Source: a virus
DNA length: 48,971 nt
IMG/VR virus record: IMGVR_UViG_3300008464_000001
Coordinates: 1 to 48,971 of that record
Direction: 5' to 3' (one strand)
Of the stretch, positions 5,039 through 44,029 are shown one piece after another. The translations under genes were made by a program, and so were the position numbers. The notes under the pieces are model-generated. The model was not told the origin of the DNA. It searched no databases and saw only the letters and a program-made list of their open reading frames with translations. Within the stretch, counting starts at the first letter, position 1; every line of letters starts with the position of its first letter.

Positions 5039-5113
5039 GAAAGTTTCGAACTTCCGTAAGTTTGCCTTGATTAAACCTTAATTGTTTTTTAAGTTAAGAG
5101 TAAGGGAGTGCGC

Positions 5114-5485
5114 GTGGAAATTAGAAAAGTTGTCGTTGTTGATGACGACGAAGACTATCTCGACTACCTTTGCGAGTCAATTGAAAAAAGGCATAAGAAA
5201 ATAAGGGTAACAAAATTCAAGGACTACGAAGAATTATTAAAAAAATTACCAGAGGCCGAACTTTATATTTTTGATAGAACAATAAAGCATTCGTACAACC
5301 TGTTCGATGCCTTAGAGTTAAATAGTCCATATTTTAAAAACAAAAGAATTGTAATGTGCACCTCTTATATTTATGACCCGCTAGAAATTGCACTACTTAA
5401 AGAAAAGTACGGAATTATGTTAGTGGTAAAGAAGCATGAGTTTGCATACGAATTTGATAGATTAATAGAAATTTTAAAACTATAG
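5114..5485 (+). CDS. Stand-alone response-regulator receiver (CheY-like) domain
   Basis: A 123-aa protein; the GTG at 5114 is preferred because AAGGGAG stands 5 bases upstream. It has the full receiver set: acidic pocket DDD (Asp10-12), phospho-acceptor Asp54 in YIFDRT, Thr83 in MCTSY, and Lys106 in VVKKHE, at spacings typical of CheY and with no output domain. A phosphorylated receiver in a phage could read a host histidine kinase. A separate OmpR-type DNA-binding protein (47672) could be its output partner. It is followed by the ParB-like gene, with a near-identical ribosome-site arrangement. Confidence 0.8.
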   Translation: MEIRKVVVVDDDEDYLDYLCESIEKRHKKIRVTKFKDYEELLKKLPEAELYIFDRTIKHSYNLFDALELNSPYFKNKRIVMCTSYIYDPLEIALLKEKYGIMLVVKKHEFAYEFDRLIEILKL

Positions 5486-10339: not shown

Positions 10340-10645
10340 ATGGGAAAAAAAGATAAAATAATAACAAAGCACGCAAGACCAGACTTACCGAAAGAAGAGT
10401 TAGCGAAAGCAGACGCAACGAGGGTGCTAGTTAAAAGTAAAAGTGACATAGCATTCGACTTCTTTCTTAAGCAGAACAAGGAAAACACCAAAAACGCGCG
10501 ACTTCGTTACCTTGAAAAGCATGACGACTTCTTTAGAGAATTTGCGTGTGAAATATTTACCAAAGGAATGAACTTTGCTTATTGCGGTGAAGTTTTAACA
10601 ACCGACGCGGAAGTTGACGAACTTATTAGAAGGCAAAAGAAATGA
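10340..10645 (+). CDS. Unknown 101-aa basic protein
   Basis: It starts 2 bases after the preceding stop with TTGGAG upstream and ends in ATGA overlap with the XRE regulator gene. Lysine-rich and helical, it has no motif that I recognise. Its coupling to the repressor gene hints at a regulatory or host-takeover role. Confidence 0.55.
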   Translation: MGKKDKIITKHARPDLPKEELAKADATRVLVKSKSDIAFDFFLKQNKENTKNARLRYLEKHDDFFREFACEIFTKGMNFAYCGEVLTTDAEVDELIRRQKK

Positions 10646-10938
10646 CAATCGGCGACAGAATTAAAGAACTAAGAAAAGAGAAAGGGTTTACTCAGGCCGG
10701 TCTAGCTGCGCAAATCGGTATTGAACATTCAACTATCGGTCGTTGGGAAAAGAACGAGAACGAACCCAAGTTAACCGACGCCGTAAAGCTTGCCAATGTT
10801 TTAGATACTACGTGTGAAGACTTCGTTGGAGTTATTAAAGGCGTTGACGGTGTTGCGTTTCGAAGACGACGGCTAGTTATGAATACAATCAGGGCGAAAC
10901 TTGACGAGCTAGATTTGCTTATGAACGAGTTGAAATAA
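10642..10938 (+). CDS. XRE-family (Cro/CI-type) transcription regulator
   Basis: A 98-aa protein with a textbook HTH_3 domain in residues 1-60: IGDRIKELRKEKGFTQAGLAAQIGIEHSTIGRWEKNENEPKL, then a basic RRRR patch and a short helical tail for dimerisation. No CI-type peptidase domain is present, so it would be a small repressor like Cro. It has no promoter of its own that I can see, being embedded in a chain of overlapping genes, which is unusual for a lysogeny repressor. Confidence 0.88.
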   Translation: MTIGDRIKELRKEKGFTQAGLAAQIGIEHSTIGRWEKNENEPKLTDAVKLANVLDTTCEDFVGVIKGVDGVAFRRRRLVMNTIRAKLDELDLLMNELK

Positions 10939-11581: not shown

Positions 11582-11656
11582 TGGTCGGGGTGATGTGATT
11601 TGAACACACGACCTCTCGCCCCCCAGACGAACGCGCTACCCCTGCGCTACACCCCG
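11582..11656 (-). tRNA. tRNA-Pro (anticodon GGG), CCA encoded
   Basis: Reading the minus strand: acceptor CGGGGTG pairs with CACCCCG, D-stem GCGC/GCGC, anticodon stem TTCGT/GCGAG (with wobble pairs), loop CTGGGGG giving anticodon GGG, T-stem GTGTG/CACAT with loop TTCAAAT, then discriminator A and an encoded CCA. All arms have normal length (75 nt in total). The integrase gene starts 8 bases from its 5' end, a typical arrangement for tRNA-targeting integrases, and a partial copy of its D-arm/anticodon region lies beyond the integrase. Confidence 0.93.
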
Positions 11657-11664
11657 ACAATCAT

Positions 11665-12786
11665 TTAATTTATATTAAGCTTCTCTTCAATTCTTTGTAA
11701 AGCTTCATTTTCTAATATCCAACCTACATAGTTTTCTTGTGCAACTTCGACAGTATCACCTATTAGCATAGCAATATCAGAAATCGACAAACCTTTATTA
11801 AGACACATTTTTGCGAAACTATGCCGCATTATATGGTTCGATATATTTCTACGAGTCGTTCCCACTATAGTTGTTCTTAGTCGACCTTTGAATGCTTTTA
11901 ATGCCGCCTCAACAACACGCTTACTTAATGATTGTCTATTTTCTTGCTTTAGCGAAAGACTATAGTTAAACACCCATCGATCTAATGCTTCGACGCCTTT
12001 TGGAAATACTATTGTCGTTCTTCGTTTACCATTCTTAGGGTCGTCGTAAGAAAAGTCACGCATCATTTGTTCACGTACAAATAGCCGAGCTTCACCACGA
12101 AAAGAGTCTTCATTAAGTGCAAACAATTCACCAGAACGAAGGCCAGAATAATACATGATAGTTACTGCGTCTTTATCGAATAGTGTTTTAAGTTGACCTA
12201 GCAATTGATTTAATTGTTCTTCGGTAATCGCAATCGGTTCACGTTTTCGTACACGTTTTTTTGATAATGAATAATTGCGGCCTAAATGTTTTGCAAGTTG
12301 GTTAAAGTCTTTAATCACTCCATTATATGCAGCCGGTGAAATAGTGTTTTTTTCAATAAGTCTTTTAGCCGTATCAATATCAATAGTTAAGAGTGATTCA
12401 TTGTCGAGTATTTTTAACACACGAATAAATTTATATTTTGCGGTACTTTTAGTTGTCTCTTTCAGGTTGTCTTTATGTTCATATCGTTCTTGCCAAAACT
12501 TCTTAAACAGTCGCATGTTAACATTAGAAACTTCACCGTCTTCGTTATTTGCAATCTTATACTTCTTTTGCAGTTTCTTTTTTAATTCGTCCACTAAATA
12601 TAAAGCATGATTGTAGTCAAACTCCTTGTTTAATAGTCCGGCGTTAATTCTTTTCAATTCTGGCGAATCGATTGTAGGTTGTGTGCGCTTACCTTCTATG
12701 TCGGTTCTATCAAGAATAAGGCGAAACTGTTTTCGTTTACCAGTAGGTCGCCTAACAGTGACTCTTTGTTGAATATAATAGCTCAT
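11665..12786 (-). CDS. int: Tyrosine recombinase, phage integrase
   Basis: A 373-aa protein. The catalytic residues of the family are visible in order: Arg in YYSGLRSGELFAL, His-x-x-Arg in HIMRHSFAKM, and the Tyr nucleophile in AQENYVGW. Upstream are an arm/AP2-like N-terminus and a SAM-like core-binding region (residues 90-190). It would integrate the genome by attP x attB recombination. It starts behind TTGGAGG. Its leader carries repeated GGTAGAC and inverted ACGGTAG elements, and the gene is bracketed by the tRNA-Pro gene and a partial tRNA-Pro echo. Confidence 0.92.
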   Translation of the reverse strand: MSYYIQQRVTVRRPTGKRKQFRLILDRTDIEGKRTQPTIDSPELKRINAGLLNKEFDYNHALYLVDELKKKLQKKYKIANNEDGEVSNVNMRLFKKFWQERYEHKDNLKETTKSTAKYKFIRVLKILDNESLLTIDIDTAKRLIEKNTISPAAYNGVIKDFNQLAKHLGRNYSLSKKRVRKREPIAITEEQLNQLLGQLKTLFDKDAVTIMYYSGLRSGELFALNEDSFRGEARLFVREQMMRDFSYDDPKNGKRRTTIVFPKGVEALDRWVFNYSLSLKQENRQSLSKRVVEAALKAFKGRLRTTIVGTTRRNISNHIMRHSFAKMCLNKGLSISDIAMLIGDTVEVAQENYVGWILENEALQRIEEKLNIN

Positions 12787-12918: not shown

Positions 12919-13341
12919 TTAAGTTCCCGTTCTCAAGTACTTCGCACGCCTATCAATTTTTAATTTCTTAGGGTCTTTGATTTTGTCTAGGACACGCTTT
13001 TCACGTTTCGCCTTGTTGTTGGCGTCCATTACTTCACGTTTATTTGAATATTTTCTATTGGTTTTACGTCCCGCTTTGATGTTGCAAGACAGGTGAGAGA
13101 ACGCAATGTTGTTTATGTCGAAGAACATTCCAACGGGGTCGATTGAATCAAGCCATGGTTTTTTGTGTTCTATACTTAGGCACGATTCGGTTTCTATTTG
13201 TTCTCCGCACTGGAAGCACCAATCACGACCCGCAAGACAAACTAGCCAGAACATAACCGACTTACGAAGCCGACCGCCCGCCGTTCCGTGACTCATTCCG
13301 AGTTGTTTATCTTTCTTTAAGTTTTGTGCAGTTCTCGTCAT
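12919..13341 (-). CDS. HNH endonuclease
   Basis: A 140-aa protein. The HNH core is visible as CFQCGEQI (Cys pair), LSIEHKKPW (His-containing strand) and NIAFSHLSCNIKAG with a second Cys. HNH enzymes next to terminase genes commonly assist DNA packaging; this one is divergent from the terminase gene. The start at 13341 is preferred over 13362 because a class B promoter -10 (13353-13348) ends exactly six bases before it and no ribosome site precedes either start, so the mRNA would be leaderless. Confidence 0.85.
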   Translation of the reverse strand: MTRTAQNLKKDKQLGMSHGTAGGRLRKSVMFWLVCLAGRDWCFQCGEQIETESCLSIEHKKPWLDSIDPVGMFFDINNIAFSHLSCNIKAGRKTNRKYSNKREVMDANNKAKREKRVLDKIKDPKKLKIDRRAKYLRTGT

Positions 13342-13347
13342 GGAAGT

Positions 13348-13377
13348 ATTTGACGTGGGCATGATTTAACGGCGCAA
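13348..13377 (-). promoter_or_regulatory. Class B promoter for the HNH gene
   Basis: On the minus strand: TTGCGC, an 18-nt spacer ending in ATGCCCACG, then TCAAAT, followed by six bases and the ATG of the HNH gene. The ATGCCCAC block lies 1 base before the -10, as in seven other sites in this genome. Confidence 0.6.
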
Positions 13378-13402
13378 GAATTAATTTAAAAAACTTTCGA
13401 AT

Positions 13403-13432
13403 TTGCCACGTCAATTTATGCCCACACAAAAT
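13403..13432 (+). promoter_or_regulatory. Class B promoter for the packaging/head operon
   Basis: TTGCCA (13403-13408), an 18-nt spacer containing ATGCCCAC (13418-13425), then CAAAAT (13427-13432). Divergent from the HNH promoter. The terminase gene starts about 23 bases after the predicted transcript start, behind ACAGGAAG. Confidence 0.6.
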
Positions 13433-14659: not shown

Positions 14660-16172
14660 CTCCGTTTACGACGAAATTAAAGTTTACGAACAAGCCCTTG
14701 CCATGCGTGAGGGTTTACCGCATTTATATTGCTTCCCTTTTTATCCGTGGCAACGTGAGTTCTGGGAATGCGACAAGCCTTTTCAATTTAACTATTCAGC
14801 AAACCAAGTAGGTAAGTCGGCAACGATGATTCGAAAGATTCTTCATTACGCAACCGAACCGAAATTGTGGAAGAAATTTAAGAAACGCCCACGGTTAATG
14901 TTTTACCTTTATCCCGACAAGCACACAATCAAGCGTGAAATCGAAACCAAGTGGACTGAGTTCTTGCCGTGCAATGGTTATGAAGACCATGAACAGTACG
15001 GGTTTAAGATTAAATACGAAGGCCCTTATCCGTCGCAAATAGAATTCAATTCGGGTGTTATTCTCGTATTACGTTCTTATGGTGGTGGTGCTGCAAAAGA
15101 AACCGCGCATAGACTTCAAGCCTCGACGCCTGCAATTATTGCGTGTGACGAAGAGTTGCCCGAAGAGTTATGGCCAGAACTACAAATGAGAATCGCTTCA
15201 CCCGCAAACGCCGGTGCGCAGTTTTGGTTAAGTTGTACGCCAACTAGAGGTCAAAAGTACCTTGCTGACATTCAAAACGGAAAACGAAAGATACCTAACT
15301 CATGGGTTCGTACTACAAGTATGTATGACTGTCTTTACTATGAAGACGGTTCGAAAGGCTTGTGGACTAAATCAAAGATAAAAGAAATTGAACAAACATT
15401 ACCTACGCAAAGAGAAATCGACGTAAGGGTACACGGACTATTTAAACGTGTTGACGGTCTTGCACTTCCTGCGTTTGACGAACTTAAGAACATAAAAGAA
15501 AACCACCCAATTCGTTCTTGGTTGATTCAAGCCGGTATTGATTACGGTATAGGCGGAAACCAAGGCGGTCACCCGAGCGCAATTGTATTCGTTGCCGTTA
15601 AACCGGACTACACCGACGCAAAAGTTATTCATACATGGAAAGCCGGAACAGATAGAAGTTACACCGTTGACGAAGTTATTAATCGTTACCTTGAAATGTG
15701 TACTGAATTAAACGTAAGTCATAATGACGTAACCCCTTTCTACGATTGGGCGTGCGGGGAAATGGGGATTATAGCAGAACGCCGTGGACTCGGTTTTCTT
15801 AAAGCAGTGAAAGACCGTAAACAAGGTTTCGACACACTTAACTCATTATTCAAAAACTTAATGTTAACGATATTCAAGTTCGGCGGTTGGCAGGACTTAG
15901 TAGACGAGATTGGTGAATACGCGCCAGACTCCAAAATCAACGACGACCTTATAGATGCCCTTCGATATGCAATTTCATTAATTGTGTTCAACTTCGAAAA
16001 CATCAAACTACCTAGCGACAAAGAAGAACCTAAAAAAGAACCACGACTTAAAGCACGAGGCGAAAAAATAAATGAAAACGAAGAAGACGATTGGACGACA
16101 GAAGACGAAATCGAAACTTGGAATAGAGAATATGACGAGTTCGGATATGACGAAGATTATACTGGCATGTAG
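14652..16172 (+). CDS. terL: Terminase large subunit
   Basis: A 506-aa protein. The ATPase N-half has a Walker A variant NQVGKS (Lys55), Walker B IIACDEE (Asp166, Glu167) and a coupling SCTPT motif (residues 194-198). The RNase H-like nuclease C-half has the first Asp in GIDYG (Asp297), then YDWACGE and the final DDLIDALRYA. It is the packaging motor that translocates and cuts DNA at the portal. The length is normal for the family. Confidence 0.92.
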   Translation: MTNSVYDEIKVYEQALAMREGLPHLYCFPFYPWQREFWECDKPFQFNYSANQVGKSATMIRKILHYATEPKLWKKFKKRPRLMFYLYPDKHTIKREIETKWTEFLPCNGYEDHEQYGFKIKYEGPYPSQIEFNSGVILVLRSYGGGAAKETAHRLQASTPAIIACDEELPEELWPELQMRIASPANAGAQFWLSCTPTRGQKYLADIQNGKRKIPNSWVRTTSMYDCLYYEDGSKGLWTKSKIKEIEQTLPTQREIDVRVHGLFKRVDGLALPAFDELKNIKENHPIRSWLIQAGIDYGIGGNQGGHPSAIVFVAVKPDYTDAKVIHTWKAGTDRSYTVDEVINRYLEMCTELNVSHNDVTPFYDWACGEMGIIAERRGLGFLKAVKDRKQGFDTLNSLFKNLMLTIFKFGGWQDLVDEIGEYAPDSKINDDLIDALRYAISLIVFNFENIKLPSDKEEPKKEPRLKARGEKINENEEDDWTTEDEIETWNREYDEFGYDEDYTGM

Positions 16173-16443
16173 TAAAGCAGGCGTTACCGAATTAACTATG
16201 GGTGACTTAAGTCTGAAATTTGACTCCACAAATCATGCCCACTCAAAATATGCAATCGGCAAGGAAGCTATACCGACGGAACAAGTTCAAGACATGGAAG
16301 TTAAGAACCCGTCACATTCAGACCCTTTATTCATTGAAGGCGACGAAGACACCGAACGCGTACAAAGCGAACTCGATGATCTCCTTATAAGCGACCCCGA
16401 TTTATACGAACAAATGATAGAAGAAAAACTTAAAGGGTCTTAA
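16132..16443 (+). CDS. Small protein between terminase and portal
   Basis: About 103 aa, acidic toward the C-terminus (SELDDLLISDPDLYEQMIEEKL), overlapping the terminase end and the portal start (TAATG). Starts at 16072, 16132 or 16147 are all in frame; 16132 is a compromise. A class B promoter-like site lies inside it. Function unknown. Confidence 0.55.
   Translation: MTSSDMTKIILACSKAGVTELTMGDLSLKFDSTNHAHSKYAIGKEAIPTEQVQDMEVKNPSHSDPLFIEGDEDTERVQSELDDLLISDPDLYEQMIEEKLKGS
16220..16249 (+). promoter_or_regulatory. Class B promoter-like site upstream of the portal
   Basis: TTGACT (16220-16225), an 18-nt spacer with ATGCCCAC (16235-16242), then CAAAAT (16244-16249), inside a coding region 195 bases before the portal gene. 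It has the best -35 of the family. Being intragenic, it could be chance, but the whole layout is kept. Confidence 0.5.
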
Positions 16444-20789: not shown

Positions 20790-20817
20790 AAGGGGGTCTT
20801 CGGACTCCCTTTTTTTG
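20790..20817 (+). terminator. Intrinsic terminator after the coat gene
   Basis: AAGGGGGTC and GACTCCCTT pair around a TTCG tetraloop, followed by a run of T. It is the strongest terminator in the window. Its T-run contains the -35 of the next class B promoter. Confidence 0.9.
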
Positions 20818-20845
20818 ACGTTCCTATGACATGCCTACTCGTAAA
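20815..20845 (+). promoter_or_regulatory. Class B promoter (ATGCCTAC variant) after the coat terminator
   Basis: TTGACG (20815-20820) in the terminator T-run, an 18-nt spacer ending in ATGCCTAC (20831-20838; one change from the family block), then TCGTAA (20839-20844). It would restart transcription for the decoration and tail genes. Confidence 0.5.
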
Positions 20846-21004
20846 TTTGACATTATTACTATGTCTGATTCTTTTAATGGAGTTGTCCATTTAGGCGCAA
20901 ACACTTGTCTTCTTAAAGTATGCCCAAGAAAAATTGTATTTAACACAAGTGAATCACCCGAACCAGTAGGAATGTTAAATGCACATTTATTCACAATTAA
21001 TTAA
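20831..21004 (+). CDS. Small unknown protein after the coat gene
   Basis: 57 aa if started at 20831, or 47 aa from the in-frame ATG at 20861; the second is favoured if the class B promoter here is used, since the first ATG would lie before the transcript start. Its end overlaps the next gene by 26 bases. No motif beyond a Cys pair. Confidence 0.4.
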   Translation: MPTRKFDIITMSDSFNGVVHLGANTCLLKVCPRKIVFNTSESPEPVGMLNAHLFTIN

Positions 21005-25144: not shown

Positions 25145-27327
25145 TGAGACAAGAGATACGTAACTTTACAGGCGGTATAACTGATTACGTTCACACGGAA
25201 AATGTTAACGCCTTCGAGAAACTAGATAACATATTAATTACGAAAGATAGGAACTACATTTCACGTCTTGGTTCGCGCCTATTGGGAGTTGAACACGTTA
25301 AGCCTGTTACTACAGTTCTTGAATGCCAACGTATTGCAGAATTAAACGGAAGAACATACTACGTACACGGTAAACAGATACTTGAATACGATAATGGTTG
25401 GACTGTTTTAATAGGGCCAGTAAGTGACTCGTTACTAACACAAGGAACTATCAATAGCACACAATCGGTTGTTGTTTGGAATGATCATCTTGTTCTTGTT
25501 GACGACGAAGGTTCACGCGCAATTAAGATTTACCATGATGAAAATGGTTTAACGAAAGTTGTTCAAGCAGGATTGCCTAAACCAACTACAGGTACAGTAA
25601 CGCCCTTTGGTGCCGGTACTAAAGGTTATGTTTATTCATTTGCTTTTAAGTACGACTATAAGATTGGCGACGTAACTTTTCTCGATGTGTCCTCGGTGCA
25701 TAATGTACAAATATTAAACGGACACGCAACACAAAACGACCTTAGTGATTTACCAGTTCTTACTAATGTAAGTGACACGCTTTATGACACTGTTAATTCG
25801 AAACTACAAATATATAGGACACCACACGAGGGTACGACTAGTTATCTAGTTGCGGAAGTTGCAAACGGTACGTTAACTTATTCAGACACAACGACAGACG
25901 TAGACCTTGTTAATGGTTTAGTTTTATACACAACCGGAACGTCACCACAGAATGACTTACCACCGGCGGCGAAGTTTTTAGAAGTTGTAGATAACGCATG
26001 TTTTTATGGAAACACTAAAGACTATCCTTACAGAGTTTGGCAATCACAAGCAGGCGACATTGACAGTGTGCCCGTTACTTTTTTTGAAGACTTTGAAGAA
26101 GAAATTGTTGGCCTTAGTTCATTTCAATCTAACTTGCTTGTCTTTACGACGAATCAGATTTGGAGACTTGAGGGTTCAATAGACGCAGGCGGTGCGGGCG
26201 TTCTTCGTAAAGTTCTTATTAGAGATAAAATAGGTTGCTTAGGCAACAATTCAATTATTAAAACAGACAAGGGTACACTCTTTGCCGGTAACGATTCGTT
26301 CTATATAACTAACGGTTACGAAGCAAATAAAATACCAGAAGAGGCCCTAAACTTTTATAACAGATACGAACGACTTGCGGTGTTCCCTAAAACAATTAAT
26401 GGGACGTATGACAGAATCAGTCAACGTGCATTTTGGACAACACAATCAAGTGCAAGTGATTACAAAGTCTTTGTTTACGACATAACATTTAATGCTTTTA
26501 CAACATTCTCAGGGCAAGACGACAACTTTGACACAACTTCAATTCTTTCCACAAGAAAGGGCGAGCTAATTAGAGGTGATAAATCAGGTCATGTTTTTAT
26601 TCACGACAACGCCGACTTTGGCGACCCGATTATTGATAACTCTAAAGCGTTTGCAGATTGGCAAGATGCGGTTGTTCTTTATAGTGTTAAACATATTGAT
26701 TTTGATTTTGGAATGCCAGACCTTAACAAATGGGTAACTAAAGTAACATTAACCGGTGACGGGCGAACAAGTCTTAATACCGAAATACGTTCTTATGACA
26801 ATTCTTACGATGTTTACAAAACTCTTAAAGAGATCGACTTTACGTCGGGTGTAATTTGGGAAGACGAAAGCGTTGTATGGGGTGACCACGAAATTATTTG
26901 GGAACTTGAAATAAGACTAAGTAAGACACGTAGGTTTAGAAGTGGACGAATAAGAACCAAAACTAAGCAGTTAGAAATAGCGAATGCAATATCAGTTCTT
27001 AGAGAATCATTTCTTACCGAACCCGATTCACAAGTAATCGTTGACTCGACAACTAAAATCGCAACAATCATTGACCCAACGTTGGCAAGTTTTCCTTTTA
27101 ATTCGATTGGAAAGTTAATGGTTATCAATGGACTTGAATACGAAATATTAGACTCGACCGCAAGCACTTTAACATTAAGTGATATTGCAAACAGTCTTGT
27201 AGACGGTAACCAAGATTGGCAAGTTAAGGGTTATGCACATAACCAACAATTACATTTATCTAGTATTATTTATAACTTTACTCCACTAGACGATGACGGC
27301 GGGTTCTACCAAGAAGGGGCTAAATAA
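25144..27327 (+). CDS. Tail nozzle / tubular protein-like structural protein
   Basis: A 727-aa protein. It begins NFTGGITDYVH... and has LDNILITKDRNYISRLGSRLLG, the pattern of podoviral nozzle proteins (T7 gp12 or P22 gp10 equivalents), which open with a statement of a 'source' strand followed by repeated beta-propeller-like blocks. The middle is all short strands. It would form the hub below the adaptor and carry the tailspikes encoded next. Confidence 0.65.
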   Translation: MRQEIRNFTGGITDYVHTENVNAFEKLDNILITKDRNYISRLGSRLLGVEHVKPVTTVLECQRIAELNGRTYYVHGKQILEYDNGWTVLIGPVSDSLLTQGTINSTQSVVVWNDHLVLVDDEGSRAIKIYHDENGLTKVVQAGLPKPTTGTVTPFGAGTKGYVYSFAFKYDYKIGDVTFLDVSSVHNVQILNGHATQNDLSDLPVLTNVSDTLYDTVNSKLQIYRTPHEGTTSYLVAEVANGTLTYSDTTTDVDLVNGLVLYTTGTSPQNDLPPAAKFLEVVDNACFYGNTKDYPYRVWQSQAGDIDSVPVTFFEDFEEEIVGLSSFQSNLLVFTTNQIWRLEGSIDAGGAGVLRKVLIRDKIGCLGNNSIIKTDKGTLFAGNDSFYITNGYEANKIPEEALNFYNRYERLAVFPKTINGTYDRISQRAFWTTQSSASDYKVFVYDITFNAFTTFSGQDDNFDTTSILSTRKGELIRGDKSGHVFIHDNADFGDPIIDNSKAFADWQDAVVLYSVKHIDFDFGMPDLNKWVTKVTLTGDGRTSLNTEIRSYDNSYDVYKTLKEIDFTSGVIWEDESVVWGDHEIIWELEIRLSKTRRFRSGRIRTKTKQLEIANAISVLRESFLTEPDSQVIVDSTTKIATIIDPTLASFPFNSIGKLMVINGLEYEILDSTASTLTLSDIANSLVDGNQDWQVKGYAHNQQLHLSSIIYNFTPLDDDGGFYQEGAK

Positions 27328-29630
27328 TGGGGTTTAGAATTAATCTCGATTTAGGTAAAATTGAGGCACTTTATACACGAGAAATATTTAAACAAGTAGT
27401 TAATTATTTAAACACGTATTTTGTTAACGAAGCGGCAATAAGTTATTCAAGTTTGATTAATAATGTCACGTCGAATGATGAACGTATCAACACTATAGAG
27501 AATAGTACTGCATTCACAGGCCCTTTCTCTGGAAGTTATACCGACTTAACAAATGTGCCCACAGACTTTACACCGAGTACTCATGCACATAATTATGCAG
27601 ACTTACTTAATGTACCGCTTGTATTTACTCCAACAACACACGGACACGACTACAGTGAACTTACAAATGTTCCCACGGAGTTTTTACCGAGTGCCCACGG
27701 ACATGACTATTTAGAACTTACGAATGTTCCTGCTAGTTTCACTCCTAGTGTTCATGCTCATAGTTATAACGACCTAGCTGACATTCCTGCTGACTTTACG
27801 CCTAGTACACATATTCACAATTATAGTAATATAGCGAATGTTCCTACTGAATTTACTCCTAGCGCACATGTTCATGACTACTCAACACTAACAAGCATTC
27901 CTAGTGAATTTAACCCAACGGCGCATGGCCATGACTATAGTGAACTAACAAACGTACCGGCGACTTTTGCACCTAGTGAACATTCACATGAAGAATTTAT
28001 CGGAACTTCTGAAAAAGCGAAGTTTAGAAACTTATTAAAATCTTTGGACGTTAATACGAACACAATTGTTTGGATGGGTGATTCAATAACAGAACAAGGT
28101 AGGGTTGGGGTTGGAGTTGGTAACGAAATCGGTTACACCACTTACTTAGAGGCAAAATATCCAAATGCGATTTATAACAATCAAGGAGTCGGTGGTTTTA
28201 CAACGAAAGACTTAATTACCAATATCGCTACATATACGGCTATTGGTGCAGACATGTACGTTGTGGCAATCGGTGTAAATGATGCCCGTTATAACGACAC
28301 TAGAGGCGCAGCAAACGACGCCGAATACTTAGCGAACATAACATCAATTTATAACTCTTTAAAAGTTGTTACGACAAACCTTGCGTTTATTTCTATATGG
28401 CCCACATACGACGCCGATGCCTTTGCAGCACTAGGACGTATTGCAACCGATCAACGTTTTGTGGAGTGGAATAAAATATTAAAAGACTTTTGCGAAACTA
28501 ATAATGTTATTTTTATCAATGCTTACGATCAAGTTAAAGCGACAATTACGCCTCATAACGAAGGTACGTTAGCAAGTGACGGAGTACACCCGAATATTAA
28601 CGACACGGAAGCAAAAGAAATTTATGCAAACTGTGTTCTGTACGACGACTATGTTAGGGCGAAATACTCAGACGTAACCGCGACGATGAATTCAAACATT
28701 GCAAGATTAGATTTATTAGAGTTATTGCCTTCTGAAACGGCAGCAAGTCACGGTGATAATTATAATATGCAAATTGCATGGAATGGTAACTTACAATCGG
28801 GTGACCTACAGTTTGATATTTTTAACACTAATTTACGTATGGGTTATTCGAATGTTGCACAATCGAACTTTGTATCATTTAAAAAACCCGTTGGCGTTGC
28901 AAACCTTTTGATTGAATCGGGTGACAATTACGCAGGAATAAAGATTCTTGAAAAGTCTGGCGCGCTAAACGACAGAGCATTTTGGATGTATTCGGCTTGG
29001 GGTTCTATGTACTTCACTTGTCGAACAGATACATTCGGGTCGAAAGGTGGTGCCGATATTAGAATTGAGCACAACTCAAGAAAAATCGTTATGGGTGAAT
29101 CGGGCGGTAAAGTCGTCGTTGGGCCTAACATGACTCCTTATCAAACTTTCAACGTAAACGGTTCAACGAACTTAGGCGGTGACGTTTATCTATCACAGGC
29201 TAACTTAAAAGGAGGTCTTTTAAAAACGTCCGATACTGGTTTGCTTGAAAAAATTGCTTGGCCCCTTCCCATAATGTCTGGAATATTAGCACTTAATGTA
29301 ACGGGCACTACAGAGTACAACATATTTCCGTCGGCAGGAATTACTATAAATGTAACTGGAAATGGAAAAGTAAGAATTCAACTTCTACTTGACCCTGCTT
29401 ATGGCCCGTCTCAAATTCACACTTCCGGTGGCTATGGCGAGTGGATTATACACCTAAATGATGTTGCTTATACTTCGATTAAATTTGAGGGTTACACGCC
29501 TAAATTAGAGGCCGTACTAACGTCAATTCCACAAGGAAACCAAGTTTTTAAAGCTTATATGAAAGGCGAACTAGCGGGAACAAATATAGCAATTACAGGT
29601 GCAAGGGCCTCCGTTGATGAGTACTTCTAG
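27327..29630 (+). CDS. Tailspike/fibre with HxH repeats and an SGNH hydrolase domain
   Basis: A 767-aa protein. Residues 1-70 are the probable virion-anchoring head. Residues 71-223 hold eight units of exactly 19 residues, each with an H-x-H pair. Residues 245-445 are an SGNH/GDSL hydrolase: block I WMGDSITEQG (Ser252), block II Gly in GVGGFTT, block III IGVNDAR, block V SDGVHPN with the catalytic Asp and His. The C-terminal 300 residues are strand-rich, with NVNGSTNLGG. The enzyme probably deacetylates or de-esterifies a surface polysaccharide used as receptor. Confidence 0.88.
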   Translation: MGFRINLDLGKIEALYTREIFKQVVNYLNTYFVNEAAISYSSLINNVTSNDERINTIENSTAFTGPFSGSYTDLTNVPTDFTPSTHAHNYADLLNVPLVFTPTTHGHDYSELTNVPTEFLPSAHGHDYLELTNVPASFTPSVHAHSYNDLADIPADFTPSTHIHNYSNIANVPTEFTPSAHVHDYSTLTSIPSEFNPTAHGHDYSELTNVPATFAPSEHSHEEFIGTSEKAKFRNLLKSLDVNTNTIVWMGDSITEQGRVGVGVGNEIGYTTYLEAKYPNAIYNNQGVGGFTTKDLITNIATYTAIGADMYVVAIGVNDARYNDTRGAANDAEYLANITSIYNSLKVVTTNLAFISIWPTYDADAFAALGRIATDQRFVEWNKILKDFCETNNVIFINAYDQVKATITPHNEGTLASDGVHPNINDTEAKEIYANCVLYDDYVRAKYSDVTATMNSNIARLDLLELLPSETAASHGDNYNMQIAWNGNLQSGDLQFDIFNTNLRMGYSNVAQSNFVSFKKPVGVANLLIESGDNYAGIKILEKSGALNDRAFWMYSAWGSMYFTCRTDTFGSKGGADIRIEHNSRKIVMGESGGKVVVGPNMTPYQTFNVNGSTNLGGDVYLSQANLKGGLLKTSDTGLLEKIAWPLPIMSGILALNVTGTTEYNIFPSAGITINVTGNGKVRIQLLLDPAYGPSQIHTSGGYGEWIIHLNDVAYTSIKFEGYTPKLEAVLTSIPQGNQVFKAYMKGELAGTNIAITGARASVDEYF
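27567..27990 (+). repeat. Eight-unit 57-bp (19-aa) repeat encoding H-x-H motifs
   Basis: First histidines fall at residues 86, 105, 124, 143, 162, 181, 200 and 219 of the tailspike, a strict 19-residue period. The unit consensus is roughly FTPStHgHdYseLtNVPte. The DNA copies are diverged at silent positions, so the spacing is held by protein selection. The H-x-H pairs in a trimeric fibre could bind metal along the axis, as the H-x-H sites of T4 gp37 bind iron. Confidence 0.9.
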
Positions 29631-29638
29631 GCGAAAAC

Positions 29639-29668
29639 TGGACTGTTCAAACTATGCCCACTCAGAAT
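29639..29668 (+). promoter_or_regulatory. Class B promoter for adaptor and ejection genes
   Basis: TGGACT (29639-29644), an 18-nt spacer with ATGCCCAC (29654-29661), then CAGAAT (29663-29668), in a 60-bp gap. The adaptor gene starts about 16 bases after the predicted transcript start, behind GGAGAATGCAGGA. Confidence 0.6.
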
Positions 29669-29690: not shown

Positions 29691-30353
29691 ATGCAATACA
29701 GAACACTAGGCGATTTTAGGGAAGAAATCGAACGTGAACTTGATCTACAAGAAGAATCATTTATTTCACCGGACGAAATGGACGGGTACATACGCGAAGG
29801 CATTGACTTAGCGGAAACTGAAATAATTGGTCTATATGAAGACTATTTTCTCGACAAAACTGAATGGGCGGCAATCACTTCACCTATTCAACTTCCCACT
29901 AATATTTACGCAAACAAAATAAGACGTTTAGAGTTAAGACAGAATTCCGATGACACTGGTTTTCAGATCAATAAGAACTCTCATTTAAAACCGTCTCGTC
30001 TTGCATACAACATTTACAACAAGCTTGGCGCAAACCCTTACGTAGAAATCGAGGGCGAGCATAGTAACACCGAGTACAGAATGTTCTTTATTAGAAATGC
30101 AAACAAACCAGTGCTTGACGCCGATTTAATTGATTTACCAGAAGTTTCTATACATTTCATTAAATCATTCGTGCGTGCCAAATGTTACGAAAAAGAAATC
30201 GACCCAAGAACAGCAAGTGCGAAAGGCGAAATCGGTTTATATAAACAGGCCATGGTTGATTCACTTGCAAATATTGTAGACGACGGTTCGGAAATACTAA
30301 GTTCTGACATGTCTTTCTATGAAGAATTCGACGAACAACAATACTTTTACTAG
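29691..30353 (+). CDS. Head-to-tail adaptor protein (P22 gp4 / T7 gp11-like)
   Basis: A 220-aa protein with an N-terminal LGDFREEIERELD and helices placed as in podoviral adaptor proteins. Its C-terminal segment (FVRAKCYEKEIDPRTASAKGEIGLYKQAM) has the Tyr-Glu...Asp-Pro...Ala pattern common in this class. It would form the ring connecting portal and tail nozzle. Position before the ejection proteins agrees. Confidence 0.75.
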   Translation: MQYRTLGDFREEIERELDLQEESFISPDEMDGYIREGIDLAETEIIGLYEDYFLDKTEWAAITSPIQLPTNIYANKIRRLELRQNSDDTGFQINKNSHLKPSRLAYNIYNKLGANPYVEIEGEHSNTEYRMFFIRNANKPVLDADLIDLPEVSIHFIKSFVRAKCYEKEIDPRTASAKGEIGLYKQAMVDSLANIVDDGSEILSSDMSFYEEFDEQQYFY

Positions 30354-31605: not shown

Positions 31606-31974
31606 ATGGAACCTATGACAATGATGGCACTTGGTACTGCGGCAGCAAGCATGTACTCGGCAAACAAACAAAGAAAATCACAAGAAAAAATGAACAAAGC
31701 AAACATGGACGCGGAAGCCGCAATTACACAATTCTCTCCATTTACAGGTGCGGGAATTTCAAGTGGTGCGGATATGCAAGCAGGCCCTAATGTTGCGGGC
31801 GCAGGAATGCAAGGAGCATTAGCCGGTGCAAAATTTGGTATGGACTTCGATAAGTTTAATCAACAACCACAACGACAGGTTGCAAGCCTACCCTCAAGTA
31901 CAAACATGTACGCAATGAACACGGCACCTAAGCCACAAATGCAATTTGGATCTAACCCTACAGCACTGAGCTAA
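31606..31974 (+). CDS. Small internal virion protein
   Basis: A 122-aa protein rich in Ala, Met, Gln and Gly, with an N-terminal short hydrophobic helix (MMALGTAAASMYSA). Composition matches the small ejected proteins of P22-like phages; assigned by composition and position. Confidence 0.6.
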   Translation: MEPMTMMALGTAAASMYSANKQRKSQEKMNKANMDAEAAITQFSPFTGAGISSGADMQAGPNVAGAGMQGALAGAKFGMDFDKFNQQPQRQVASLPSSTNMYAMNTAPKPQMQFGSNPTALS

Positions 31975-31976
31975 TT

Positions 31977-32900
31977 ATGTTTTCACAAGAACAATACCAA
32001 ACACAACTAATGGACTCGTTAAATAATAACAAGTCGACGTTTAATAATGTTCTTACCGACCTTCAAGGCAGGCGTGCAGAATTAGAAGAACGTAAAGCAA
32101 ATCGTCACCCGCTTGAAGGCATTGACTTGTCTGGCATAAGTCGTGCGTTGGCGAATGCTAGTGGAACACAAGCAGCGATTACAAGGCCACCAGAACGTGA
32201 AGACTACGACGGTAAACTTGCAGCAATGGACAAGAATATAATGTCGGCACAATTTGCACAAAACGGTAATGATTTACGGTTAGCAAATGCGATGAAACCG
32301 AAGCAAGACCCTATGGCATTGTTAAATAGACGCCTAGACAGGACTGAAATTGAGAACCGAAAAAAACGTCTACATGCTGAAAAACTTGCAAAAATAAAAG
32401 CCGATGCAAAAGCAAAAGCCGACGCCGCTAAAACCTCCAAAGGTAAATCACTCACCGATTCGGGTGCCACAGAAATGTCAGACCTTAGAAACCAGTACTC
32501 TGCAATGGACGATATTATGGCAGATTGGAATAAGAACGTAGGTAATGAGACTTCGGGCGAGTGGATGTTTAGTGGTTTAGCAGGAAGTCTTTCACCATGG
32601 GATAGTGATGTAGAAAATTACGATGACCAAAAACGTGTTTATGCACAGGCCGTTGGTAAGGCACTTGAGGGCGGTAAGTTAACGGACGAGGATTATGTAA
32701 ATAAGTACATGAAATATTTTCCTGCAAATACCGACTCACCAGAAAGAGCAAAAAACAAAATTGATATATTAAAGAAGTTGCTTAAAGACAGTTACGACAA
32801 TCGTGTAGAAACTTATAAAGACACAAACTTTAACACCGGTAACTTGCCTTTAGGATTAGGCGACGACCCTGACAAACTTTTAAAAGAACTAGGTCTATGA
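31977..32900 (+). CDS. Ejection / internal virion protein
   Basis: A 307-aa protein with a Lys/Ala-rich coiled coil near residues 105-160 (RKKRLHAEKLAKIKADAKAKA). It overlaps the next gene by 4 bases (ATGA). Likely one of three co-ejected proteins that form the periplasmic channel. Confidence 0.6.
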   Translation: MFSQEQYQTQLMDSLNNNKSTFNNVLTDLQGRRAELEERKANRHPLEGIDLSGISRALANASGTQAAITRPPEREDYDGKLAAMDKNIMSAQFAQNGNDLRLANAMKPKQDPMALLNRRLDRTEIENRKKRLHAEKLAKIKADAKAKADAAKTSKGKSLTDSGATEMSDLRNQYSAMDDIMADWNKNVGNETSGEWMFSGLAGSLSPWDSDVENYDDQKRVYAQAVGKALEGGKLTDEDYVNKYMKYFPANTDSPERAKNKIDILKKLLKDSYDNRVETYKDTNFNTGNLPLGLGDDPDKLLKELGL

Positions 32901-34999
32901 ACAAAGAAAAAATACAACTACTAGCAAAACTTCACAGAGAAGGTAAGTTAAACCCCGAGCAAACACAACGTTTCGTTACGGGGCTAAAAGCTTATAAAGA
33001 AAAAGTTACGCCTAAGTATTCTCAAACACCGCACCCTGACATGGGAACGTTTAATAAAGATAGGTATACACTTACTAACTTCTTATCGAACTCTGGAAAA
33101 GTAGAAGACTACAGAAGTAAAGATAACCCGCACCTTAGATTTAGTAAAAACGAAGACGGTCAAATTTTTGCGAATACTGAAGGTTCTAATAAATTTCATT
33201 CAATTGACCCCGACGGTTCGGAAGGTATAGATTTAGGTGAAGTGGGAGATTGGGGCGATGATATTGCAAAAACAGTTTCCGGTATTGGTGGCGGAATTCT
33301 TGGTGCGCTAGGTGGTGCCGCCGCCGGTACAGCAACATTACCCGTTGTTGGAACAGTTGGTGGTGCAGGAGTTGGTGCAGTAGCAGGAAACGCGGCGGGC
33401 GAGTCGTTATTCGAAGGTGCTAGACAATGGGCCGGTGGTGAGTTAGGAATTCCCAACAACACTGAAAACGTTGGTTCTGATATGGCGAAAGACGCTGCAC
33501 TCAATATGGCCATTCCAGTTGCCGGTAAGTATGTAGGTAAAGCAGCAAAAGCCGCAGCACCATACTTTGCTAAACCAGTAAAGGCACTTAAAGATAAGTT
33601 GTTAGACTATCAGTCTAAATTAATTCCTGATTTTAATAAATATATTTCCGACGTTGATGACGACGTAATTGATGCCTATTCAGACAGTTCTAGTTTTAGA
33701 AAAGGTCTTCGTAATATTGACGCCGGTACAGCAAAAGATACTGAAAACTTACTTACCGATAAGATTGCACAAGCACAAAAAGGTGTTTCTAACGGTCGAA
33801 AAGAAAAACTTTGGAAAGAAGGAATTGAACCGCACAGAAAGAACATGAAACCTGTTAACATGACTAAAGTTAGAGGTGTTTATGATGATGCAATTGGCGA
33901 ACTTCAAAACAAATTTGATACTGACTCTTTAATTGTTCAAGCAAGGAAAGAAGCCGACGAACTTCGAAAAGCTGCAAATACACCCGACATTGCCGGTATG
34001 TCTAACCAAGGGCGCAAGTCACTCTTAAAACAAGCCGACGAAATAGAAGAGGCCGCAGTAAAGCAAGTTAACGGCGATCAAGGTTGGCTAGATGACATTG
34101 ATTTAATAAAAAAACAAAGGGCCAAGGCACTCGGTTCTGGAAATGCAGACATGGTTGACGGCGACAAGGCGTTTGGGATTTCAAAAGATTTGTATGGAAT
34201 TGGAAGGGCTAATAAAGACGTTATGAAAAGTGATGCAATACAAGCTTTGACAGACCAACAAAAAACAGACGCCGCACTAAGAGCTAGAAAAGCAGGGGCA
34301 GCATTAAAAGAAGCTCTTATGGACTCAGTAGAGGACAAGGAAGGTTACCAACAAGCTAACGATGCATACTCAACAATGATGAAATCGTTCGACAAAACGA
34401 AAACACAAACAACACAAACGCTTAAGAACCCTAAAAGTCTGCGCAGTAGATTGAAAGAATTTACACGACCTTCCGACGACGAGGGAGTGAACATGGCACA
34501 AAAGGCCGCGTTTGAAGACATTGAAAAATATGCAGAACTCGGTGGTGAAAATTTAGACTTCAAAGGCTTTGATAAAGTTCTTCGTGGTGCTAAACAGTTA
34601 GGCCCTAACTCTGCCTACGCCGACAAGATTGGTTCGCCAATTGCTAACAAGCTTGCAAATGCCGTCGCAACGGGTGGTTTTTTATTAACTCGCTCTTTTC
34701 CTGCTACTAAAACAATTGGTGGTGTAGCAAAGAGTGTTGCCAGTAAAAGAGGTGGTGGTGCTGCGGTTAGAAAATCTTTAGATAGGTTGGCAGCAAAGCA
34801 AAGAAATAAAAGTTTATACAGTAAAGCAATTGACAAGAACTTTGAAAAGGTTGGCGACAATATTGACAGTATATTTAACCCATTTAGGGACATGAACCCC
34901 GCATTGATGCCTAACACGCCAAATGGAATAGGTGGACTAATGTCGACAATTCCACGTAAAGATAGAATACTCTACAACTTGTACAATGATGACCAATAA
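32897..34999 (+). CDS. Large ejection protein with a glycine-zipper membrane segment
   Basis: A 700-aa protein. After a 110-residue head comes a Gly/Ala-rich hydrophobic hairpin (residues 125-175: IGGGILGALGGAAAG ... VGGAGVGAVAGNAAG) typical of glycine-zipper inserts in ejected proteins. The following 500 residues are long charged helices. It likely inserts in the inner membrane during DNA entry. Last gene of the structural block. Confidence 0.7.
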   Translation: MNKEKIQLLAKLHREGKLNPEQTQRFVTGLKAYKEKVTPKYSQTPHPDMGTFNKDRYTLTNFLSNSGKVEDYRSKDNPHLRFSKNEDGQIFANTEGSNKFHSIDPDGSEGIDLGEVGDWGDDIAKTVSGIGGGILGALGGAAAGTATLPVVGTVGGAGVGAVAGNAAGESLFEGARQWAGGELGIPNNTENVGSDMAKDAALNMAIPVAGKYVGKAAKAAAPYFAKPVKALKDKLLDYQSKLIPDFNKYISDVDDDVIDAYSDSSSFRKGLRNIDAGTAKDTENLLTDKIAQAQKGVSNGRKEKLWKEGIEPHRKNMKPVNMTKVRGVYDDAIGELQNKFDTDSLIVQARKEADELRKAANTPDIAGMSNQGRKSLLKQADEIEEAAVKQVNGDQGWLDDIDLIKKQRAKALGSGNADMVDGDKAFGISKDLYGIGRANKDVMKSDAIQALTDQQKTDAALRARKAGAALKEALMDSVEDKEGYQQANDAYSTMMKSFDKTKTQTTQTLKNPKSLRSRLKEFTRPSDDEGVNMAQKAAFEDIEKYAELGGENLDFKGFDKVLRGAKQLGPNSAYADKIGSPIANKLANAVATGGFLLTRSFPATKTIGGVAKSVASKRGGGAAVRKSLDRLAAKQRNKSLYSKAIDKNFEKVGDNIDSIFNPFRDMNPALMPNTPNGIGGLMSTIPRKDRILYNLYNDDQ

Positions 35000-35716: not shown

Positions 35717-35746
35717 ATTTGACGTGGGCATAATTTAACGTGTCAC
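35717..35746 (-). promoter_or_regulatory. Class B promoter for the minus-strand lipoprotein cluster
   Basis: On the minus strand: GTGACA, an 18-nt spacer ending in ATGCCCACG, then TCAAAT. The 13 bases from CGTTAAAT to the block are nearly identical to the HNH promoter. It lies in the 73-bp gap after the helicase gene and drives genes 35676-35014. Confidence 0.65.
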
Positions 35747-40591: not shown

Positions 40592-40660
40592 CCAGACATG
40601 GGGCGTAATTAACTTGACAATAAAAAGAGAATTGCTAAGATAACGGCGTCCCATGTCTGG
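40592..40660. promoter_or_regulatory. 11-bp inverted pair framing a promoter
   Basis: CCAGACATGGG (40592-40602) and CCCATGTCTGG (40650-40660) are exact reverse complements, 47 bases apart. They lie before the -35 and just past the -10 of the promoter at 40614, and each is itself close to palindromic. This is the geometry of a paired operator, and it separates the leftward replication operon from the rightward small RNA. Confidence 0.6.
40614..40641 (+). promoter_or_regulatory. Sigma70-like promoter of a small RNA
   Basis: TTGACA (40614-40619), a 16-base spacer, TAAGAT (40636-40641). No class A or B block. It points rightward into a region without a gene and is followed 76-81 bases later by a terminator T-run. 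Confidence 0.65.
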
Positions 40661-40722
40661 GGCAACTACACCCTTATTACTAGTTTCGAGCTGCAATTCT
40701 TTGCTAGTAGTAGGGGTTTTTT
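40648..40722 (+). ncRNA. Predicted ~75-nt small RNA with intrinsic terminator
   Basis: Begins about 7 bases after a sigma70-like -10 and ends in a stem CCCTTATTACTAG / CTAGTAGTAGGGG (with wobble pairs) and six T (40717-40722). It contains no usable reading frame. The 5' end carries CCCATGTCTGG, also present in the leader of the divergent Sak4-like mRNA, so a titration or base-pairing role in that operon is possible. Confidence 0.6.
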
Positions 40723-41369
40723 AAATGTCTAACTTTCATTCGTGTGCGTAGTGTGTGTTTGTGTGAAAGGAAACTTATATGTGTAACTTTTACATGGCAA
40801 CGAAAAAAGCAATTGTTCCAAAATAAACTTCATGTTTTCCTAGTATTTCGGCAAGTTATCTTATTATTTTATTTAGCTTCGTAGTGACTGTGTCTGTAAG
40901 TTGTTGAATTTATTCGTCGAGTTACCTTCGATTAGTAACCATAATCTAGACCTTAATGCAACCTTAAGATTTAACCTAAAAGCCGTTGAATAGTTCCGTT
41001 TCGTGATTACAGTGTGTTATGAGTGGATATGATGAAGTTGTGTCAAGCGTTTTCTTTGTCTGGAAGTGACTGTAATGAGGCGATAATTAAAAATAATTAA
41101 AATAGTTCTTGACTCGGGAAAATCTGCCCACGTCTACTGTTTTGGGGGACGGGAGACAAGTGCGAAGCGCGCAGTCGAACGAGGGGGTTTGTTGCAACTT
41201 TAAACGACATTAGGAGTTTGGAGTGCATAACAAACGATTAGGTTAACCGCTAGGTTATTGCCGTAAAGAGATACGACGGACAAGAACTATAAATGGTTGG
41301 ATAACGTTACCGTAAATGTAAAGCGTCGAAGCGATGGCGTAACCGCCATGTTAAACACCGTAATTTCGC
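40723..41369. other. Non-coding 650-bp region between replication and recombinase operons
   Basis: No convincing gene. It holds an orphan class B promoter (41109), an AT-rich middle (40850-41000), a G-rich run after 41140, and a perfect hairpin ATGGCG-TAAC-CGCCAT (41334-41349) that could end the minus-strand recombinase mRNA. An origin or a site for the adjacent recombinase would fit, but no iteron or core site is clear. Confidence 0.5.
41109..41138 (+). promoter_or_regulatory. Class B promoter without a downstream gene
   Basis: TTGACT (41109-41114), an 18-nt spacer with CTGCCCAC (41124-41131), then TCTACT (41133-41138). It points into 230 bp with no reading frame and then into the antisense strand of the 41370-42646 genes. 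Confidence 0.5.
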
Positions 41370-41696
41370 TTATAGTTTTAACAGTTTTAAGTCTTCTTTA
41401 ATTAACGTTTTATAAACTTCACTTTCTAAAATCTCTTTCTCTACGTTTGCAACTTTGAAGTCGTTACGAATAAGAAAAGTGTCATTAACTTTACGAGCAA
41501 TTTCGAACTTAATTAGTATTTTCTGCCATTCGTTATAAGTTAAATATTCAACTAAACATTCGGGTAATGAAAACATAATATTATAACGAACAAAGTGACC
41601 ACCGACCGGCGATAATTTAAACCCTTTGACAACTTCTTGCCTTCGTCTTGCCTGTTCTTTTGCTAACTTCATAAACTCTTTTTTAGTTCCTAACAT
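41370..41696 (-). CDS. Unknown 108-aa protein after the second recombinase
   Basis: Starts with ATG 41696 behind GGAGG, overlapping the recombinase stop by 7 bases. Basic, helical; the middle reads RYNIMFSLPECLVEYLTYNEW. Coupling suggests a function in the same process as the recombinase, such as a directionality factor. Confidence 0.55.
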   Translation of the reverse strand: MLGTKKEFMKLAKEQARRRQEVVKGFKLSPVGGHFVRYNIMFSLPECLVEYLTYNEWQKILIKFEIARKVNDTFLIRNDFKVANVEKEILESEVYKTLIKEDLKLLKL

Positions 41697-42646
41697 ACGG
41701 CCTCCATAACACCTAACTCGGTTGTTGTTCCCGCCAACATTCTCTTTTGTCTGTCTTTCGTTAAATACTTTTCAGTAACTTCGAACTTTGCGTGCCCTAG
41801 ACGCATTTTAAGCACGGCGTTTCTAACTTCTAAACTATGCCCCGCCTTTTCCATTTGAATGTCTAACTCGTTAGCATACGTTCGTCTCATTGAATGTGGA
41901 GTAAGTTCTTCTATGTCCGTTAATTCTGTAATTGAATCAAGCCTTGAGTTTACGGCGCGAGTTGTTATTGGTGTTCCACGTTTTGCGCGGTTGCTTGTAC
42001 CAGTGAGAATGTAATCAGTTGGTAATAAATCTTTAGTTAATGAACTAAATTGTTTAATCAGTTCTTGAAGACGGTAGAAAATGCTTGCACTAATTGCGAT
42101 ATTTCTTGCCTTAAAGCCCTTACCAGAACGAATAAACACGTAATGGTTTTCACCTTCCTTAACTATGTCCTGTAGTTGAATCATAACAAGTTCTTCCCGA
42201 CGCGCACCGGTGTTCACTCCTAAAAAGAGAGTCAAATATAACTGTATTTCGCTTGCCGTTTTCGTTTGAAGAATAGAGAACACATTGAACATTGTTTCGC
42301 CCGAGTGTGTTGGTGTTGTCTGGTGTTCGGTATCTACGGCCACGCCCTTAACAAGTGCAAACTCGGCATTTTGAATTAAACCTCTAACACGTAAATGTGA
42401 CATAAACTTCTTTATGGCCGTAAGTTTGGCGTTAACAGTCGAAGAGGAATAGCTTTTAACTAGGTGCTTGCGGTACTCTAAGAACACTTCAAGCGTAATT
42501 GAGTTTAAGCTTCTAACGTCCCACGTTTTAGCGACATATTGACCGAATTGAATGACGTTCTGTTCGTAAGCTGCCTTAGTGTGAACATTGTCAATGCACG
42601 CAAGGAACACATTAATTTCACTGTTAAATTTCGTTATTAGTTGCAT
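41690..42646 (-). CDS. Second tyrosine recombinase (XerC/D-like)
   Basis: A 318-aa protein with an N-terminal SAM-like core-binding domain (residues 1-95), then catalytic Arg in GARREELV, His-x-x-Arg in HSMRRTYA, the LGHAKFEVTEKY segment with the Tyr nucleophile, and a short tail. Size and layout fit XerC/D-like enzymes better than an integrase. It could resolve genome multimers if the prophage is a plasmid. Good ribosome site AGGAGC. Confidence 0.9.
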   Translation of the reverse strand: MQLITKFNSEINVFLACIDNVHTKAAYEQNVIQFGQYVAKTWDVRSLNSITLEVFLEYRKHLVKSYSSSTVNAKLTAIKKFMSHLRVRGLIQNAEFALVKGVAVDTEHQTTPTHSGETMFNVFSILQTKTASEIQLYLTLFLGVNTGARREELVMIQLQDIVKEGENHYVFIRSGKGFKARNIAISASIFYRLQELIKQFSSLTKDLLPTDYILTGTSNRAKRGTPITTRAVNSRLDSITELTDIEELTPHSMRRTYANELDIQMEKAGHSLEVRNAVLKMRLGHAKFEVTEKYLTKDRQKRMLAGTTTELGVMEAVC

Positions 42647-42667
42647 GGTGTTTGCTCCTAGTTGTTA

Positions 42668-42784
42668 CTATTCTTTGTCGTTTTCTTTATGTTTGGTTAA
42701 TTCGTTACCTACGTAATGCACAATCGGTGCGCCAATCGCTAAAATTATACCACCGACGCAAATTACTATGTGTATTTTCTCCAT
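42668..42784 (-). CDS. 38-aa membrane protein
   Basis: A short frame in TAATG overlap with the gene before it: a single hydrophobic helix (IHIVICVGGIILAIGAPIVHYV), then a charged tail (KHKENDKE). Supported by the coupling and by the filled gap before the recombinase gene. Confidence 0.55.
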   Translation of the reverse strand: MEKIHIVICVGGIILAIGAPIVHYVGNELTKHKENDKE

Positions 42785-42984
42785 TACGCCGCCTTTTCGT
42801 ATTGTTCACGTTCTTTAAGTTGCCTTGCAAGTTGCTTTTCTTCGTTCTTCGCTTGTCGTTGCCACAATATCGCTTCTAGTTCTTCTTTTAATTCTTCGTA
42901 ATCGTGACCATTAACGCCTCTAGTGTAGTTTTCGCCTAATATCGCCTTAATTCGGGCAATTGGTATATGTTTAAGTGTACTCAT
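42784..42984 (-). CDS. Unknown 66-aa protein
   Basis: Started at 42984 behind AGGGG; an in-frame GTG at 42990 is possible. Charged and helical, Glu/Lys/Arg-rich C-terminus; coupled to the membrane protein. No motif. Confidence 0.5.
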   Translation of the reverse strand: MSTLKHIPIARIKAILGENYTRGVNGHDYEELKEELEAILWQRQAKNEEKQLARQLKEREQYEKAA

Positions 42985-43030
42985 TTTCACCCCTTGTATT
43001 CAATTTATGTTAGTGGTAGCCTTTAAAGAG

Positions 43031-43089
43031 AGAACTAGGGTAGCAGTCGTAAACGTTGCAATTTGTCAGACTATAGCCGCCCTAGTTCT
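43031..43089 (-). promoter_or_regulatory. 10-bp perfect inverted repeat in an operon gap
   Basis: AGAACTAGGG (43031-43040) and CCCTAGTTCT (43080-43089) pair exactly around a 39-nt loop with an inner AGTC/GACT pair. It stands in the 124-bp gap between genes 43109 and 42984 of the minus operon, without a T-run, so a processing, stabilising or attenuation stem is more likely than a terminator. Confidence 0.55.
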
Positions 43090-43108
43090 AACCCCGAATT
43101 CACGGGAA

Positions 43109-43774: not shown

Positions 43775-43789
43775 ATCTACTCCGTTGAT

Positions 43790-44029
43790 CTACATATATA
43801 GTGCAATTAGTTCACGTTCTTGATCAGGCGTTAGACCGTCTAACAATGTGTTTAATTCCTTTTCGTCACTCTCTGTTAATGTGCCATGTTTTTCGTAACA
43901 AAACCCATTAGGATTAGGCGCAAGGCCGTAAGAAATTAAGTCACATACGCCGCGCTCAAGTAGTACAATAACTTCGCGTAAGTTAACGTTGGCGGTTTCT
44001 TGAAATTCTTCGTTAGTCATTCGTTTCAT
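43790..44029 (-). CDS. Unknown 79-aa protein
   Basis: Behind CGGAGTAACT. Acidic and helical; no motif recognised. Confidence 0.55.
   Translation of the reverse strand: MKRMTNEEFQETANVNLREVIVLLERGVCDLISYGLAPNPNGFCYEKHGTLTESDEKELNTLLDGLTPDQERELIALYM

Follow-up and report, generated by a model that had tools for sequence, protein, structure and literature searches.

A Family of Eight Sites with a Conserved Block in the -35/-10 Spacer, Likely a Promoter Class of a Phage Genome

Results

Gene Content and Position of the Sites

The window analysed here is the whole of a 48,971-nt virus record (IMG/VR IMGVR_UViG_3300008464_000001). An exact 114-base direct repeat is present at both ends, so the record very probably represents a complete circular genome 48,857 bases long with a GC content of 39.6%. 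It encodes a portal and terminase of the P22 type, an Amidase_3 protein, a primase-like protein, a helicase, an AAA protein and two integrases. No DNA match to it was found among 50,697 phage records, and the relatives that were detected share only ~35% identity in portal and terminase. At 11582-12786 a tRNA-Pro gene directly adjoins an integrase gene, a possible attachment site, and the product of 27327-29630 is tail-fibre-like and carries a GDSL lipase/acylhydrolase domain. The heptamer GTTCTTR (R, A or G) has 96 copies on both strands combined versus about 18.5 expected, mostly within genes and alike on both strands; in the seven relatives tested its enrichment is at most about twofold. GATCTT is depleted (5 occurrences versus 22 expected), possibly through avoidance of GATC.

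Eight sites in this genome share a promoter-like motif. All lie in non-coding DNA except site 3, and sites 1, 2, 4, 5, 6 and 8 are located just 5' of a same-strand gene, with nominal leaders of 16-45 nt, site 1 apart. Site 1 (13348-13377, minus strand, TTGCGCCGTTAAATCATGCCCACGTCAAAT) heads an HNH endonuclease gene (ORF 12919-13362) and stands back-to-back with site 2. Two possible start codons lie downstream of it, one of which coincides with the nominal transcript start; the true start of the ORF is probably 13341 or 13296. Site 2 (13403-13432, plus strand, TTGCCACGTCAATTTATGCCCACACAAAAT) is at the head of the packaging/structural operon, with a nominal leader of 23 nt to the GTG at 13462. 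Site 3 (16220-16249, plus strand, TTGACTCCACAAATCATGCCCACTCAAAAT) lies within a small gene (about 16129-16443) flanked by terL and portal, and its nominal start is 187 nt before portal. Homologues of this small gene are found between terL and portal in relatives, and the site falls in a poorly conserved part of it.

Site 4 (20905-20934, plus strand, TTGTCTTCTTAAAGTATGCCCAAGAAAAAT) has a nominal leader of 38 nt to the ATG at 20979 and follows a terminator-like hairpin with a T run (20790-20811, plus strand) 3' of the major capsid gene; hairpin-like sequences occupy the same place in relatives. Site 5 (29639-29668, plus strand, TGGACTGTTCAAACTATGCCCACTCAGAAT) occupies a 60-bp gap before the gene at 29691-30353. 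Site 6 (35717-35746, minus strand, GTGACACGTTAAATTATGCCCACGTCAAAT), with a nominal leader of 34 nt to the ATG at 35676, heads a small block that ends in a lipoprotein-like gene, for which a spanin or lysis role is possible. Site 7 (41109-41138, plus strand, TTGACTCGGGAAAATCTGCCCACGTCTACT) faces non-coding DNA, beyond which its direction is antisense to the genes at 41370-42646, in the second integrase block; a structured RNA downstream of it was not supported (z -0.96). Site 8 (48194-48223, plus strand, TTTCTTCGTTAATTCATGCCCACGTTAACT) also follows a terminator-like hairpin (48138-48161, plus strand), has a nominal leader of 24 nt to the ATG at 48254, and heads a long gene block that extends across the circle junction to about 11581. 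The original prediction had placed the whole family at operon heads. This describes the six sites 5' of a same-strand gene, while site 3 is intragenic and no known gene lies downstream of site 7.

Three gene blocks have no comparable site ahead of them in a scan of the genome: the replication operon (40554), the block at 41370-45221 and the operon at 46142-48139. Judged by gene content, from which the timing classes are drawn, the replication, second integrase and HD/wHTH operons appear to be early. At 40614 (plus strand), within 40592-40722, a good sigma70-type promoter (TTGACA-16-TAAGAT) is located between the inverted-repeat arms CCAGACATGGG and CCCATGTCTGG; a very stable hairpin and a T run lie past the promoter, and the region may specify a small RNA of ~75 nt (fold z -5.5), for which Rfam gave no match. 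At 46040-46140, shortly before the gene at 46142, TTAAATGTTCTTATATGTACAATTA occurs twice, 41 bp apart, together with a diverged third copy; these repeats may be an early regulatory region.

A 30-bp Motif Unites the Sites

The family was first recognised by the octamer ATGCCCAC, of which the original prediction counted six exact copies with fewer than one expected. Six are indeed present, at the positions given, versus 0.61 expected, and none of 100 shuffled genomes reached six. This count alone is not decisive, because many 8-mers could be tested and others are more over-represented; ATGCCCAC by itself does not rank with the genome's most over-represented 8-mers. The significance of the family comes instead from the aligned flanks of the six exact copies, which contain 39.1 bits versus 19.7 ± 2.1 for the null, with none of 20,000 draws as high, and the result holds also when the null sets are taken from intergenic DNA. 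What is more, the family ranked first in an unbiased search for 30-bp motifs, with an information content of 42.7 bits versus 33.5 in a shuffled genome. In this search non-coding 30-mers were compared with the whole genome with no prior motif, and a positive control was passed. The motif reads TTGac-N3-C(G)T(T/C)AAaT(C/T)-ATGCCCAC-N4-A(A/C)T.

A leave-one-out scan of the 49-kb genome recovered all eight sites of the corrected list with no false windows; each time the left-out member was outranked only by the seven other members, and beyond the eight sites the best window in the genome scores at most about 15.5. The motif family is real. Seven of the sites listed originally share the 30-bp motif, with its 18-nt spacer and TTG-like -35, as ascribed to them. 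The eighth, 20815-20844 (plus strand), is not one of them: its leave-one-out score is -3.8, 71 windows score higher, and it was rejected. It is replaced by 20905-20934 (ATGCCCAA), absent from the earlier list, which stands at the head of that gene block and scores 20.6 versus a maximum of 17.9 in 20 shuffled genomes. The intergenic exact copies of ATGCCCAC each face the gene that follows, as had been stated.

For numbering, the T after the core was set as -7. The core ATGCCCAC then occupies -21 to -14, the downstream part of the 18-nt spacer, with TTG at -36 to -34 and a pair of A residues at -26/-25. Columns that exceed the 99% level of random ones extend from -36 to -7, and the spacing between the box, the TTG at -35 and the A/T of the -10 is fixed across the sites. 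The -35 element is of the sigma70 type, near TTGACA: TTG is exact in five of the eight sites and six sites match at 4-5 of 6 positions, while site 1 matches at 3/6 and site 8 at 2/6. The -10 element seems to deviate from the normal form. It matches TATAAT at 3-4 of 6 positions. All eight sites have an invariant A (-9) and T (-7), and A at -11 is found only in sites 2-5, those of the structural operons, and not in the other four. Site 8 has weak hexamers (2/6 at -35 and 3/6 at -10), yet its box is perfect. No palindrome was detected in the sites (best fraction 0.46 versus 0.52 for the null, p = 0.92), and a direct repeat with a 16-bp period (CGTYAAAT) is only marginal (p = 0.04).

Relatives and Database Searches

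The original prediction expected the block to recur at the same places in related phages. It did not: the relatives of ~35% identity lack the block, and two of the homologous places offer little or no room for it. The relatives examined keep the structural gene order. A hairpin-like sequence follows their major capsid gene, the next start codon comes within some 60-110 nt, and little space separates the genes ahead of the 29691-30353 orthologue. Sites 4 and 5 thus lack an evident counterpart there. No comparable motif family was found in these relatives either; at ~35% identity the failed expectation leaves the promoter claim unrefuted.

Two repeats in relatives were considered as equivalent families and rejected. 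In one record (G003, 31969-34165) a leader, AAGCGAGGCGGGGATGA or a near copy, occurs at four places; it is a ribosome-binding leader that includes an apparent start codon. In another (G004, 28603-28832) the repeats ATTATGGGTGAT and ATCACCTATAAT form a palindromic, operator-like cluster and are probably repressor operators.

Searches by DNA pattern and by protein for close relatives with the motif found none. The pattern matches in IMG/VR and GTDB are at chance level, and the contigs concerned carry no homologue of the window; the best outside match is inside a gene. A GTDB search with the portal alignment likewise gave no motif-bearing close relative. Since there is no equivalent motif family in the relatives, the set of putative promoters is private to this lineage within the collections searched.

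Candidate DNA-Binding Proteins

The complete genome was searched for proteins that might read the box. The sigma factor domain PF04542 is absent, the positive controls being detected. For PF04545, again with positive controls, there was only a weak match below the cut-off, inside a ParB-like gene. Adjacent to a ParB-like gene, 5108-5485 encodes a stand-alone protein resembling a response-regulator receiver (Pfam E = 0.0009, below the cut-off).

A 155-aa protein (47672-48139, plus strand) has a C-terminus that resembles an OmpR-type winged helix (IRGVGYKL), with sub-threshold matches: it scores 15.8 bits against PF00486 (cut-off 26.2, E = 0.015) and matches response regulators in the PDB at E = 0.03. 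Its single-sequence fold has the order EEE-HH-EE at low confidence (pLDDT 43). We rank it first as a possible activator because its operon has no box and it lies directly upstream of site 8; it is a weak, low-confidence candidate for the box-reading factor. A 98-aa protein (10642-10938, plus strand) is clearly of the Cro/CI helix-turn-helix type (Pfam HTH_3, E = 1.5e-15; PHROG transcription regulators) and is a candidate repressor.

Discussion

The eight sites likely constitute one promoter class (probability about 0.8). A class specific to the phage, as originally proposed, is the best reading of the fixed spacing of the box, the two sites that follow terminators, the short leaders and the early-looking operons that have no box. 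We lean, with limited assurance, to the view that a phage factor activates these promoters via the spacer box. The fuller version, in which such a factor reads the 8-bp element at -21 to -14 and thereby enables the host RNA polymerase to initiate at promoters whose hexamers are weak, is more tentative. The suggestion of a modified holoenzyme or an activator in the spacer is plausible.

Under such an activation scheme host RNA polymerase would start the structural, lysis-like, HNH and accessory/recombination blocks from the eight sites. With their weak hexamers the promoters would be poor by themselves, and a DNA-binding factor made by the phage would touch the spacer box and recruit or remodel the holoenzyme. 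Given a box-dependent factor and early operons that have no box, the boxed blocks would be switched on together, after those operons.

The strongest competitor, unlikely in our estimate though to be taken seriously, is that the box is an operator through which a phage repressor, either the 98-aa Cro/CI-type protein or a monomeric one like that of L5, silences the blocks in the lysogen. The phage encodes integrases as well as a clear HTH_3 protein, and a repressor operator superimposed on promoters would show the same anatomy. L5-type stoperators, which are asymmetric, oriented with transcription and distributed genome-wide, provide a precedent (PMC9283540). However, stoperators have no need of the fixed spacing seen here between the box and the -35/-10-like elements, and the palindrome expected for a Cro/CI dimer is missing. 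The promoters also appear weak rather than strong, and because the HTH_3 gene is apparently in the site 8 block, an HTH_3 repressor would silence its own gene. Stoperators are 13 bp long and occur in more than 20 copies, in promoters and intergenic spaces alike (PMC9283540). The sites described here resemble them in being asymmetric repeats oriented with transcription in short intergenic gaps, but are about 30 bp long, number eight, and all hold one register with promoter-like elements, which sets them apart from stoperators.

It is rather improbable that the motif is read by an alternative sigma factor or regulator of the host, the phage having copied the signal of a host regulon. The -10 at some sites is GTCAAAT-like and in this recalls ECF-type -10 elements. 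On the other hand, a search of 84,980 GTDB species genomes with the motif including its TTG gave 17 scattered single matches, approximately the number expected by chance, from many phyla and one per locus, in a collection that may lack the host or its genus.

There is little likelihood that the sites are recent duplicates of one promoter, alike by descent and not by selection on a specially read box: sites 1, 6 and 8 do have CGTTAAaT plus the core in common, but the flanks beyond the motif differ, and the core is kept where hexamers and flanks vary. Promoters for a T7-type single-subunit RNA polymerase (an AT-rich stretch, an 8-bp core ending in CAC and an A/T-rich start region), which the layout AAaTY-ATGCCCAC-NNNN-A resembles, are a very remote and largely refuted alternative, as the complete circular genome has no such polymerase (PF00940) by a search positive in T7, and the TTG of the -35 is conserved too.

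If a phage factor does activate through the spacer box, the arrangement differs from the known systems that it most resembles. We know of no phage example of promoter recognition at -21 to -14, between the -35 and the -10. In T4 middle promoters, where MotA and AsiA appropriate sigma, the MotA box at about -30 replaces the -35. Those promoters, like the present ones, combine a phage-specific box with a sigma70-type promoter, but the MotA box takes the place of the -35, whereas here the TTG is retained and the box is further downstream. The late promoters of Mu have non-consensus hexamers and serve several operons through one phage activator, C, acting with host RNA polymerase (PMC4461284). Here too several operons have such hexamers, and a single phage activator is proposed to serve them. 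However, the binding site of Mu C overlaps the -35 or is upstream of it, while the invariant block here is inside the spacer, at -21 to -14; no protein of the C/Mor family was recognised in this genome. The regulator site of MerR-type promoters is within the -35/-10 spacer, where we propose that the box acts. MerR sites are described as strong palindromes in 19-20-bp spacers (PMC1526738); by comparison, the 18-nt spacer and the lack of a palindrome place the present sites outside the MerR type.

Activation through the spacer box, if true, would define, from sequence alone, a regulon of a phage lineage that has no close relative in the searched collections, and would add a palindrome-free case of polymerase control through the spacer. 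The small set of sites and the two candidate proteins would then offer a handle for a direct test. It would also mean that such wiring can be private to a single phage even though its structural genes are common to its relatives.
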